64,000 nt of DNA from positions 248,001-312,000 of the forward strand of contig NZ_BEWP01000001.1 in NCBI RefSeq assembly GCF_002723995.1, given 5' to 3'. Shown piece by piece: positions 8,273-12,296 of this stretch; within the stretch, counting starts at the first letter, position 1, and each line of letters opens with the position of its first letter. This DNA comes from Gluconobacter kondonii (GTDB lineage Bacteria; Pseudomonadota; Alphaproteobacteria; Acetobacterales; Acetobacteraceae). The notes under the pieces are model-generated. The model was not told the origin of the DNA, made no database searches, and was given only the letters and a program-made list of their open reading frames with translations. A program made the translations under genes and the position numbers.

Positions 8273-9216
8273 TGCGTAATTTTCGACTTCTCCCCATCGC
8301 CTTCGCGGTCTTCTGCCTTCTTGGAACGGCAGATGCCCGTCCGGGTGGAGGCAGCTCCATTGGAAGCCGCGGCTCCCATACCTGGAGCGCTCCGCCGCGC
8401 ACGTCCATCACGCCCGGCTGGGCGCGCCCGATGGACCAGTCCGCAACCCCGCGTCCCTCGCCCAATTACGGCGGCGCACCCGGCTATGCCGCTCCGGCCC
8501 GTCCGATGCCGGGTTACGGTGCTCCGGCTTACAGACCGTCCTATCCCGTGCGTCATCCGTTCCTGAGCGGCTTTGCGGGCGGCTTTCTGGGCGCGGGGCT
8601 TTTCGGTCTCCTCAGCGGTCACGGCATGATGGGCGGCATGACAGGTGGAACGTCGTTCTTCGGCTTCCTGTTTCAGGTTCTGATTATCGGCGGCCTGATC
8701 GCTTTTGTGCTGCGTCTGTTCGGTAATCGCCGTCAGAGCCAGATGGGAGGCGGTTCCAGAGGAATGTCCGCAGGAGCCTCACCTTTCGGCAATAACGGCG
8801 GCAGCACACCCGTGACGCTCACAAACGACGACTATACGAGCTTCCAGAGGCTTCTGCTCGACATTCAGGCGGCCTGGAGCGCACAGAACATGCGCGCGCT
8901 TGCCAGCATGGCCACTCCGGAAATGACGGGCTATTTCAACGCACAACTTTCCGAACTCGCCAGCCGTGGCGCACGGAACATCGTGTCCAACGTACAGTTC
9001 CAGCGCGGTGATCTCTCCGAAGCCTGGCGTGAAGGCAATCTGACCTACGCCACCGTCGCCATGCGCTACGCCATGACAGACGTTACGACTGACTCCATGG
9101 GCAATGTCATCGACGGCAGCTCCACCGAAGCTGTAACCGTAACGGAACTCTGGACCTTCGTTCGGGCTGATGGACGGGGCAACTGGATCCTCTCCGCCAT
9201 CCAGCAGGCTGGCTGA
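8272..9216 (+). CDS. Tim44-domain inner-membrane protein
   Basis: A 314-aa protein. A signal or anchor segment (residues 1-22, ending TADA) is followed by a Gly/Pro/Ser-rich linker. A glycine-rich region and hydrophobic helix come next (about residues 100-155, FLFQVLIIGGLIAFVLRLFG). The C-terminal Tim44-like domain runs from about residue 180 (DDYTSFQRLLLDIQAAWSAQ) to WTFVRADGRGNWILSAIQQ. Bacterial Tim44-domain proteins of this layout are common in alphaproteobacteria; their role at the membrane is not well defined. I chose the ATG at 8272 over a TTG one codon earlier. The start overlaps the pmbA stop. A strong terminator follows. Confidence 0.88.
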   Translation: MRNFRLLPIAFAVFCLLGTADARPGGGSSIGSRGSHTWSAPPRTSITPGWARPMDQSATPRPSPNYGGAPGYAAPARPMPGYGAPAYRPSYPVRHPFLSGFAGGFLGAGLFGLLSGHGMMGGMTGGTSFFGFLFQVLIIGGLIAFVLRLFGNRRQSQMGGGSRGMSAGASPFGNNGGSTPVTLTNDDYTSFQRLLLDIQAAWSAQNMRALASMATPEMTGYFNAQLSELASRGARNIVSNVQFQRGDLSEAWREGNLTYATVAMRYAMTDVTTDSMGNVIDGSSTEAVTVTELWTFVRADGRGNWILSAIQQAG

Positions 9217-9283: not shown

Positions 9284-9406
9284 TTAAAGTCGCGCCAGCG
9301 TAATCACATAAAAAATCACCGCCAGCAGCACCACACCGCTGACAATCCCCGTAATCCGGCTCAGCCGCCGCTTGCGGGCAAGATCAATATCCGTCGTCAT
9401 GGTCAT
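9284..9406 (-). CDS. CoxF-like 40-aa membrane peptide
   Basis: A 40-aa open frame, MTMTTDIDLARKRRLSRITG followed by one hydrophobic helix (IVSGVVLLAVIFYVITLARL). Its ATG overlaps the ctaB stop as ATGA, which strongly suggests coupled translation. A basic RKRR patch before a single transmembrane helix, directly after ctaB, is the layout of CoxF, a small oxidase-assembly protein encoded after ctaB in alphaproteobacterial cta operons. The match is by pattern and position only. A second ATG two codons in (9400) could also be used. The terminator at 9238-9267 closes the operon. Confidence 0.75.
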   Translation of the reverse strand: MTMTTDIDLARKRRLSRITGIVSGVVLLAVIFYVITLARL

Positions 9407-10353
9407 CCGATCAGAACCCGGTCAACAAGAAGCCCGCAGAACAGCAGGAACAGATAAGCCAGCGAGTAACGAAATGCGAAGCGCGCGGGCTTATCCTTTG
9501 TCAGGCTCACGCCTGTTGCATCCTGCTTGTCCATCAGCACACGAAACGCGCAGAGAATGAAGCCCAGATCCAGCAGGCTGGTCACGATCGTATAGGTCAG
9601 CCCGACTTCATGAACAAACGTCGGCAGCAGCGATACTGCGGTGAGAATGAACGTGTAGATCAGGATCTGCCACCGCGTATGACGCGCGCCTTTCACGACC
9701 GGCAGCATTGGAATGCCAGCCTTGTCGTAATCCTTGCAGGCATAAAGCGACAGCGACCAGAAATGCGGCGGCGTCCACAGGAACACGATCGCAAACATCG
9801 CGACCGGCAGAACCGCCATGGAATTCATGCTCGCAGCCCAGCCGATCATCGGCGGGAACGCGCCCGCAGCCCCACCGATTACGATGTTCTGCGGCGTGCT
9901 CCGCTTGAGCCACATCGTGTAGATGACGCTGTAGAAAAAGATCGAAAACGCCAGAATTCCGGCTGCCAGCGCATTCGTCGCAAGCCAGAGCACAACGACA
10001 GACAGAACCGACAGCACGATCCCGTAAACCAGCGCCGCCTGTTCCGGCATCCGCCCGTCCGGGATAGGCCGCACGACCGTCCGCTTCATAATCGCGTCGA
10101 TGTCGCGGTCGTACCACATATTGATGGCGCCTGCGGCCCCCGCCCCGATGCAGATGCACAGGATGGTAATCAGTCCGATAGGAATGGACGGCCAACGCGG
10201 CGCCACGGCCATGCCTGCAGCCCCGGTAAACACCACCAGTGAAATCACACGCGGTTTAAGAAGTGCCAACCACTCGCGCAGGGACGGATCATTATCCTTC
10301 CCCGGAACGGAAAAAACCCCCGAAGGGGCCAGAGGTGTCGCCGTATCGCTCAT
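9403..10353 (-). CDS. ctaB: Heme O synthase (protoheme IX farnesyltransferase)
   Basis: A 316-aa polytopic membrane enzyme that adds the farnesyl chain to protoheme, giving heme O. The prenyl-diphosphate binding motif is NMWYDRDIDAIMKRT (about residues 78-92), and the second conserved loop is LWTPPHFWSLSLYACKDYDKAGIPMLP. Around eight transmembrane helices are apparent. It overlaps the COX1-like gene upstream (ATGA at 10350-10353) and the CoxF-like peptide downstream (ATGA at 9403-9406). Gluconobacter is known to respire with a bo3 ubiquinol oxidase, which needs heme O, so the gene is expected to be essential for that enzyme. The cyo genes are not in this window. Confidence 0.96.
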   Translation of the reverse strand: MSDTATPLAPSGVFSVPGKDNDPSLREWLALLKPRVISLVVFTGAAGMAVAPRWPSIPIGLITILCICIGAGAAGAINMWYDRDIDAIMKRTVVRPIPDGRMPEQAALVYGIVLSVLSVVVLWLATNALAAGILAFSIFFYSVIYTMWLKRSTPQNIVIGGAAGAFPPMIGWAASMNSMAVLPVAMFAIVFLWTPPHFWSLSLYACKDYDKAGIPMLPVVKGARHTRWQILIYTFILTAVSLLPTFVHEVGLTYTIVTSLLDLGFILCAFRVLMDKQDATGVSLTKDKPARFAFRYSLAYLFLLFCGLLVDRVLIG

Positions 10354-11528
10354 GCCGAGACCCGGGCACGCCCGGTCTCCCTCAACAGGAACAGCCCCAC
10401 CAGCCCAAAGGCTAGCAGACTGACACCCATCAGAATCTCACCATAGATCATCACGCCCGGCACGATCGAACAGAACGCACCCACCAGCATGAGACCCGCA
10501 TGGACCCGACTCAGCAAAGAAGGAATACGACCGGGGAGAAGCCTCTCAACCCAGGCATAGAACCCGCCACACAGCGCCATGATCCCACCAAATGCCACGG
10601 CCGTATGGTCGCCTGAATGGCCCGGCAGAGCATCAGACAGCCATCCCGCCGCAAACAGCAGAATGCTGCCAATCGCCCACAGCGCAGTTCCATCCAGATC
10701 GCGCTTCTGCTGCCACACATCCTGGCACAGCGCCCCAATCAGCACCACCGACGGCACGATCTGCGTCACCAGCATAAGACTGGCCCCTACCCCGGATGCT
10801 AAAGACCCATACAGTCCGTCCATCCAGAGCAGCGGCCCACCAACCCCCATCACGCCAAACACATAAGGCGCAACCGTCCAGGACGCCCTGCCACGGGCAG
10901 ACCGTGACAGAAGGGCCGACGTAACCAGCCCGAGTGCTGGAGTCAGCATCAGTGCCATTTCAGGCAGATGGAGCGTTTCGATGAGAGCGTCGGTGGTCAG
11001 TCCGTCCATCATGCCGCGCGTCACGACAGCGGCCAGAACCGGTGCCACCAGAACGACGCTGCATGCCGTTGCGAGAAGCGACCATGCCAACGGTGCCATG
11101 TCCCTGAAACGGCAGGTCCGTCCTTCAAGACAGGTGGTAATCACATCAGTCGCTACGGCCAGAATACCAGCAGACCAGAGGAGCATCGCGACGAAAGGCA
11201 GGAGGGGCAGAAGGACAACACCTGCCGAAAGAAAACCGAACCCCGCCAGCGTCAGTCCGCGAAGTACTGTCCGGTCAGTCCCGAGCGCTGCCGGCAATAG
11301 CCACTGCCCAAACCCGCCCAGCGCAGCAGGACACATGACGAAGAAAGTCATGAGAATACCGTGACAGAAGGCCTGTCCGCTGGTGGGATGTGTCTGGAGA
11401 ATTGGCAGGGCCAGCGACCCACCCAGCAGGCCCGCAAACAGGGCCAGCAGAATGAAGGATGTTCCGACTCGGCGGCTTGAGCGGTCCGAGCCAGTATCCG
11501 GAGCAGTATCGACGGCCTGATAAATCAT
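10350..11528 (-). CDS. Degenerate heme-copper oxidase subunit I (COX1) homologue lacking the binuclear centre
   Basis: A 392-aa protein with about 12 transmembrane helices that can be aligned by eye along the whole of COX1. Helix II reads HGILMTFFVMCPAALGGFGQ, matching the COX1 helix with low-spin heme ligand H56. Further matches are DVITT..., WSLLAT...PVLAA, LWAIGSILLF and, in helix X, HTAVAFGGIMALCGGFYAW, which keeps the second low-spin heme ligand, H308. The CuB site is gone: HPEVY has become LPEMA (L188, A192; the proton-channel Glu is kept at E190) and the HH pair has become D237-G238. The high-spin heme ligand is G306. I chose the ATG at 11528; a GTG at 11594 would add 22 residues. It cannot be a normal oxidase but the frame is intact and overlaps ctaB. 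It may be a low-spin heme membrane protein. Confidence 0.82.
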   Translation of the reverse strand: MIYQAVDTAPDTGSDRSSRRVGTSFILLALFAGLLGGSLALPILQTHPTSGQAFCHGILMTFFVMCPAALGGFGQWLLPAALGTDRTVLRGLTLAGFGFLSAGVVLLPLLPFVAMLLWSAGILAVATDVITTCLEGRTCRFRDMAPLAWSLLATACSVVLVAPVLAAVVTRGMMDGLTTDALIETLHLPEMALMLTPALGLVTSALLSRSARGRASWTVAPYVFGVMGVGGPLLWMDGLYGSLASGVGASLMLVTQIVPSVVLIGALCQDVWQQKRDLDGTALWAIGSILLFAAGWLSDALPGHSGDHTAVAFGGIMALCGGFYAWVERLLPGRIPSLLSRVHAGLMLVGAFCSIVPGVMIYGEILMGVSLLAFGLVGLFLLRETGRARVSA

Positions 11529-11615
11529 GATCGCGTAGTCGGTCCCTGAACGTAGGAATACCGCAGCGAGCGTCGGAATACTCGGCGCCGACACACGTGC
11601 GGAACCAAACGCCGA

Positions 11616-12296
11616 TCAGGCGACCAGGGCTGCTGCGTCGCTTTTACTCTCGCATTGCGGCAATGTCACGAGTGTAAACAGCCCCGCTGGCGGAACCGGC
11701 GTCAGCGTTGCACGACGCAGGTCTTCGGGCGGCAGAAGCGACTCAATGGCGAAATCCGGATGCCAGCCCAGCGAGCGGGACGCCCGGGCCATGCCACGCT
11801 CCACCGACAGACGCACACCACCGGTCGCCAGAAAATGATTCACGAACAGGATGTGCCCACCCGGCTTCACGACGCGCTTGAGCTCGGTCAGCAAGCGGTC
11901 AGGATGCGGGACGACGGAGGCTACGAACATCGCTACCGCAATATCAAAGCTGTCATCTTCGAACGTTGTGGCTTCCGCATCCATTTCCAGCAGATCGTCC
12001 ACATTCGTCAGATGCTCCTGAAGCACCCGCATCCGTGCACGCTCCAGCATGTCTTCGGAAAGATCGATTCCCGTAATGCGTTTGCTCTGGGAGTAGGACG
12101 GCAGGGCAAGTCCCGTTCCGACACCGACTTCCAGAACCCTCTCTCCTGGCAGAGCATTGACCGCAGCCACTGCTCTCTTACGCCCGTAACCCGAAATACC
12201 GCCAAAAACAGTATCATAAACACGGGCCCAACGACGATAAGCCGTTTTGACGGCTTCCGCGTCCAGTGCCGAACGCGGGGAAAGGGTTGAGGACAT
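11616..12296 (-). CDS. pmtA: Phosphatidylethanolamine N-methyltransferase
   Basis: A 226-aa class I SAM-dependent methyltransferase of the PmtA type, which methylates phosphatidylethanolamine stepwise to phosphatidylcholine. The SAM motif I is VLEVGVGTG (residues 54-62), followed by GIDLSEDMLERAR and the motif DSFDIAVAMFVASVVPHP. The YDTVFGG segment near the N-terminus is typical of PmtA. An AAGAAGG element precedes the ATG. Phosphatidylcholine is a known membrane lipid of acetic acid bacteria. Methyltransferases of menaquinone or ubiquinone synthesis are the main alternative, but the PmtA-specific segments favour this call. Confidence 0.85.
   Translation of the reverse strand: MSSTLSPRSALDAEAVKTAYRRWARVYDTVFGGISGYGRKRAVAAVNALPGERVLEVGVGTGLALPSYSQSKRITGIDLSEDMLERARMRVLQEHLTNVDDLLEMDAEATTFEDDSFDIAVAMFVASVVPHPDRLLTELKRVVKPGGHILFVNHFLATGGVRLSVERGMARASRSLGWHPDFAIESLLPPEDLRRATLTPVPPAGLFTLVTLPQCESKSDAAALVA

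Follow-up and report, generated by a model that had tools for sequence, protein, structure and literature searches.

The COX1-like gene and its relatives

In a 64,000-nucleotide window of the Gluconobacter kondonii genome (NCBI RefSeq assembly GCF_002723995.1, contig NZ_BEWP01000001.1, positions 248,001 to 312,000; coordinates below are positions in this window), the heme O synthase gene ctaB (9403..10353, minus strand; NCBIfam NF003349, 328.7 bits against a cut-off of 246) is preceded by a gene whose product resembles subunit I of cytochrome c oxidase, COX1 (10350..11528, minus strand). The two genes share four bases, an ATGA joining the ctaB start to the stop of the COX1-like gene (10350..10353, minus strand). 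The upstream neighbour is a methyltransferase gene (11616..12296, minus strand), whose best NCBIfam match, PmtA, scores under its cut-off. Judging from the aligned relatives described below, the COX1-like protein selectively retains the histidine pair of the low-spin heme, while the oxygen-reducing centre has been lost.

Read from its ATG, the protein has 392 amino acids (aa) and 12 long predicted membrane helices. An in-frame GTG at 11594 would add 22 residues (11529-11594) and give 414 aa; the ATG at 11528 is the likelier start, because close relatives begin near the same ATG. Neighbours with 96% identity include the species G. cerevisiae and G. cadivus. The protein passes the Pfam gathering cut-off for heme-copper oxidase subunit I (PF00115, 50.8 bits against 34.8) and fails the cytochrome c oxidase subunit I equivalog TIGR02891 (37 bits against 670.75). 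Its predicted structure is a 12-helix COX1 fold, as an earlier note made from the sequence alone had expected.

We searched 299 Acetobacteraceae genomes and obtained a match at E 0.001 or better in 270, most of these being ordinary COX1 as judged by frame size. Carriers of the COX1-like gene, 68 genomes in 21 genera, were selected by eye as near-full-length matches with an E of 4.3e-10 or better and a frame below 530 aa; matches weaker than this cut were assumed to be ordinary COX1 as a group. Two carriers are exceptions, one having a 751-aa open frame that contains a normal member (G042) and the other a match cut by a contig end (G009), and one genome was excluded for its 96-residue match (G285). 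A family profile recovered a further carrier (G214), so the selection cut misses some members. Residue-level reading covered 58 of the 68 carriers, among them the window genome. One locus was dropped as a duplicate (L002, of L003), and a first alignment of 57 sequences lacked L044, which is included in the later counts of 58. We also considered 34 further loci from Gluconobacter, Neokomagataea, Saccharibacter, Bombella and unclassified Acetobacteraceae. The reference consisted of 18 true COX1 sequences of the family, all with HPEVY and 15 of them partial, excluding two shorter pieces (L101, L117); invariance was called at positions covered by at least 8 of them. In a class-wide search of 289 genomes, those of the matches listed that fall outside the family have open frames of at least 521 aa, the size of ordinary COX1.

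Selective retention of the low-spin heme ligands

The family-only alignment of the 58 sequences has exactly four invariant columns: H56 in helix II (codon 11361..11363) and H308 in helix X (10605..10607), which occupy the positions of the two axial ligands of the low-spin heme, together with W149 in helix V (11082..11084) and W235 in helix VII (10824..10826), the Trp of the COX1 motif WAHHM, all on the minus strand. Of the 234 positions invariant in true COX1, which survive in a median of 9/58 sequences, these four are the only ones kept throughout. Every other COX1-invariant His is kept in at most 20/58, and the two ligands persist even in members whose identity with the window protein has fallen to about 20%. 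An alignment artefact was rejected, since the pair stays paired in a COX1-guided MAFFT alignment, in a family-only MAFFT alignment and with hhalign.

The residues of the oxygen-reducing centre have a different fate (all codons on the minus strand). The first CuB His, of HPEVY, is replaced by L188 (10965..10967), the cross-linked Tyr by A192 (10953..10955) and the K-channel Lys by L263 (10740..10742), and each of these three residues is kept in 0/58. The CuB His-His pair is D237-G238 in the window protein (10815..10820); His occurs at these positions in 20/58 and 7/58, and no protein has two CuB His. The high-spin heme His, here G306 (10611..10613), survives in a single sequence of the 58. Thus, set against the requirements of a functional heme-copper oxidase, the low-spin pair is present, while the CuB site, Tyr, high-spin His and K-channel Lys are absent. 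The earlier note had claimed just this combination for the window protein, and it holds across the orthologues. It had also listed the proton-channel Glu as kept; E190 is indeed present in the window protein, but with 28/58 it is not a family trait. A near-invariant Trp is newly gained: W118 (11175..11177) is Trp in 52/58 members, but of the 17 true COX1 covering this position, 15 have Ala.

The gene remains under constraint. Among 13 Gluconobacter (the window and 12 others), the ratio of nonsynonymous to synonymous substitution rates (dN/dS) has a median of 0.082 and a maximum of 0.154, compared with 0.030 (ctaB), 0.027 (methyltransferase) and 0.031 (glutathione synthetase); in a wider set of 155 close pairs (dN under 0.12) the median is 0.086 and the maximum 0.19. 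Values from distant pairs (up to 0.84) were set aside because synonymous sites are saturated. Being well below 1 but above those of the neighbours, these ratios indicate a gene that is constrained, less so than its neighbours. An ordinary pseudogene, which the earlier note had thought unlikely, is rejected by the open frames, the low dN/dS and the invariant columns. Neither non-conserved histidines, nor a dN/dS near 1, nor a fold other than COX1, the outcomes it had named as speaking against it, occurred. Its observation stands confirmed, and its interpretation finds support in part. A subtler form of decay would be a slowly eroding relic, preserved for the sake of ctaB translation, which its stop codon and ribosome traffic would feed. 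The relaxed ratio (0.082 against 0.027-0.031) and the absence of the gene from one genome (G001, see below) would suit such a relic; we consider it quite improbable, given a dN/dS far from neutrality, no internal stop codon in any of the 68 carrier matches, and two His that remain invariant despite the divergence.

The gene itself has been noticed before. According to the part of PMC5158111 consulted, A. pasteurianus has a ctaB (APT_01774) and a ctaD (APT_01775), and the relevant part of PMC10715153 describes a 'deranged COX1-like protein' of Acetobacter, clustered with ctaB and without all metal-cofactor-binding residues. Since it too lies beside ctaB in acetic acid bacteria, our gene and the Acetobacter 'ctaD', compared by description and gene order, very probably belong to the same orthologous group. 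The low-spin pair, kept in 58/58, contradicts the statement that all metal-binding residues are lost. Within the searchable literature, which does not include Matsutani 2014, we found no printed account of the kept pair, and the main-text passages searched in G. oxydans RNAseq and knockout papers contain nothing on the gene. Matsutani 2014 reportedly read the gene as a loss of function by mutation. The gene, its decay and its link with CtaB are therefore already known, and the preserved heme site is new within the literature searched.

Gene order, descent and genomic context

In all 28 long loci (12-19 kb) the COX1-like gene lies between the methyltransferase gene and ctaB, and the 34 further loci show the same two neighbours over shorter flanks. 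The earlier note had named a partner of heme O synthase as one possible role, and the gene link with this enzyme is constant: ctaB follows on the same strand in 92/92 loci (58 + 34), with a 4-base overlap between the ctaB start and the upstream stop in 59, a 1-base overlap in 2, and in the remaining 31 a possible ctaB start within 12 bases after, at, or before the stop. By genome coordinates ctaB adjoins the gene in 67/68 carriers, the two being on separate contigs in G009. Such a pairing would suit the suggestion, made in section 16 of PMC10715153, that the protein is a structural stabiliser of CtaB; it would then be heme-free, with the His pair kept for packing only, and the great variability of the rest of the protein (the median of 9/58 given above) would be no surprise. 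We regard this as rather unlikely, as packing leaves the absolute retention of the axial pair unexplained when the other invariant His are so readily lost, and the published account presumes a loss of all metal-binding residues, which is true of 0/58 sequences.

Concerning descent, of three true aa3 loci compared within the family, two (L057, L064) have a methyltransferase homologue upstream of COX2-COX1-ctaB, and on this basis we read the COX1-like gene as an in-place remnant of an A1-type operon. It shares with A1-type subunit I (PF00115; CtaD) a common homology, the 12-helix fold, the low-spin pair and the order before ctaB; it differs in having no complete CuB site, high-spin ligand (bar the single sequence), cross-linked Tyr or K-channel Lys, and no COX2 or COX3 gene beside it. 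In a ctaB tree, the genes beside COX1-like genes group together in a single clade (support 0.75), which is nested within the family's other ctaB, where L111, L113 and L116 are labelled as aa3-operon ctaB and have no adjoining COX1; by topology, the ctaB of G001 is the sister of this clade.

The ancestral order also leaves room for a role in electron transfer. The protein would then be an independent b-type cytochrome, fed for instance by quinol or a periplasmic dehydrogenase, that simply inherited its place from the ctaDB order, because ctaB follows true COX1 in the aa3 operons of the family as well. In bo3 and aa3 oxidases, electrons enter at a single bis-His heme within the COX1 fold, which would agree with such a role. 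It is nevertheless unlikely in our view: beside the gene, no match to COX2, COX3, ctaG or SURF1 was found in the 28 long loci (one flank being short in L039 and L055), which leaves it with no known electron donor subunit, and ctaB was kept while the other old operon genes were shed.

The 68 carriers each have a single strong ctaB match (E 4e-120 or better), any others being weak (7e-8 or worse), so that no second heme O synthase is seen; in the window genome the single strong match is 9403..10353 itself. All carriers also have a full-size PF00115 protein, which in the window genome adjoins a CyoA-like gene. No match to heme A synthase was found in 33/68 carriers, the window genome included, so in those genomes the COX1-like protein cannot hold home-made heme A, and heme A is excluded there as its cofactor. 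According to PMC10715153, A1-type COX ends at the acetous clade, and an A2-type COX occurs in some acetous taxa. In agreement with this, all five carriers checked for a real aa3 have matches to an A2-type COX1 (YSHPAVY), COX2 and COX3, and the idea that the gene is confined to genomes lacking a real aa3 was rejected. These A2-type loci (L166-L170) contain no ctaB match in the 15-16 kb examined, and the sole strong ctaB match of their genomes is the one beside the COX1-like gene. In the genus g31, heme A synthase is present and, among the PF00115 matches listed, none is of A1 or A2 strength besides the one of cyoB size; in these respects g31 resembles A. pasteurianus as described. The six g31 genomes read (L038, L042-L045, L056) keep both His.

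A survey of 44 further genomes concerned absence of the gene, which is not an independent observation in the 29 picked because the family search gave no match in them. A ctaB match is missing in 15/44, several of which are incomplete and some of which have other oxidase genes. One g31 genome (G210) is without the COX1-like gene, ctaB and any PF00115 match, while the six other g31 genomes taken all carry the COX1-like gene. Four small genomes (G029, G116, G066, G070) are without the COX1-like gene, ctaB and a cyoB-size oxidase, a joint absence that is only suggestive because they were picked among genomes without a match. All five are small genomes; two have no PF00115 match, and in the other three the only one lies in an open frame of 785-833 aa, which we take to be the size of quinol nitric oxide reductase. 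Two PF00115 matches elsewhere (G126:C1:787601-788944 and G073:C40:2220-3578) contain one internal TAG each and are possibly broken or misassembled oxidase genes. Just beyond an intact ctaB, a ctaB-like piece of 47 residues that contains three TGA codons in frame (G013:C1:1446335-1446472) is a possible broken second copy.

A candidate heme-holding partner of CtaB

The kept pair, the overlap with the only ctaB and the persistence of the gene without heme A are, in our opinion, best explained by a partner of CtaB that holds heme B or heme O. Going by its residues, the COX1-like protein probably binds a heme. We give a probability of roughly 0.45 to the reading that it is an in-place descendant of A1-type subunit I which carries one bis-His heme and most likely acts alongside CtaB. 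More tentatively, and with more doubt than belief, we propose that in acetic acid bacteria an oxidase subunit was converted into a one-heme 'pseudo-oxidase' dedicated to carrying heme B/O, or presenting it, for the sole heme O synthase, an assembly acceptor turned heme chaperone.

As COX1 is assembled, it takes up heme within the membrane, at the helix II/X pair. In the proposed conversion, the A1-type cytochrome c oxidase would have lost its other subunits while subunit I stayed in place and was then pared down to a membrane protein with one bis-His heme, bridging H56 and H308. We infer the heme type, a translational coupling, a contact with CtaB and a direction of heme transfer as follows: the heme would be B or O, and not A where heme A synthase is absent; the protein would be made in step with CtaB through the overlapping genes; and it would either supply heme B to CtaB or hold fresh heme O for the bo3 oxidase, in parallel to the apo-subunit I that formerly received its heme here. 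Overlapping genes would suit a fixed stoichiometry, and the same data could thus be accommodated by a heme sensor or assembly regulator whose heme occupancy sets the activity of CtaB or of the oxidase; this strikes us as very improbable, as the Pfam search of the protein gave no further domain above cut-off and nothing specific speaks for it.

Known systems offer partial likenesses to a heme-holding partner. The CtaA-CtaB complex of heme A synthesis, as presented in the part of PMC9145763 consulted, has a heme-handling membrane protein able to complex with CtaB and presumably passes heme O, although CtaA is an enzyme of another family and the partner proposed here is a former oxidase subunit. 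SURF1, which the same source connects with the insertion of heme A into subunit I, would likewise take part in a heme hand-over during oxidase assembly; it is another kind of protein, found in a true aa3 operon of the family (L058), and the surroundings of the COX1-like gene contain no match to it.

Several observations weigh against the partner we favour. Confidence of the structure model is low around both His (mean 49-59 for residues 41-60 and 62 for 301-310), the two Arg in the loop between helices XI and XII, which in COX1 hold the heme propionates, are gone in 58/58, and dN/dS is about 2.7 times that of ctaB. The old operon order already placed ctaB after COX1, so neighbourhood alone is no proof of partnership. 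One genome (G001) keeps UvrB-GreA-GSHS-methyltransferase-ctaB-Tim44-PmbA and a cyoB-size gene without the COX1-like gene, and a second (G179) has methyltransferase-ctaB and a cyoB-size gene, again without it beside ctaB; CtaB and bo3 therefore do not always need the COX1-like protein. In G001 about 68 bases separate the methyltransferase and ctaB matches (L162, about 9000-9068), and this gap is a natural deletion or a separate loss of the gene. Function of the A. pasteurianus ctaB is said to have been shown in E. coli. Both ctaB and ctaA of that species are reported as functional in the part of PMC6915089 consulted. Given the reported ctaB activity and the absences in G001 and G179, the COX1-like protein would be an aid and not a necessity.

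The passage of heme O and heme B to membrane oxidases is poorly understood, and a heme-holding partner of CtaB, if real, would give a direct genetic handle on the delivery step in industrially used bacteria. The kept pair also corrects the published view that the gene is a leftover devoid of metal ligands, and the family would clearly illustrate how selection can maintain an enzyme that has been reduced to a single cofactor site.
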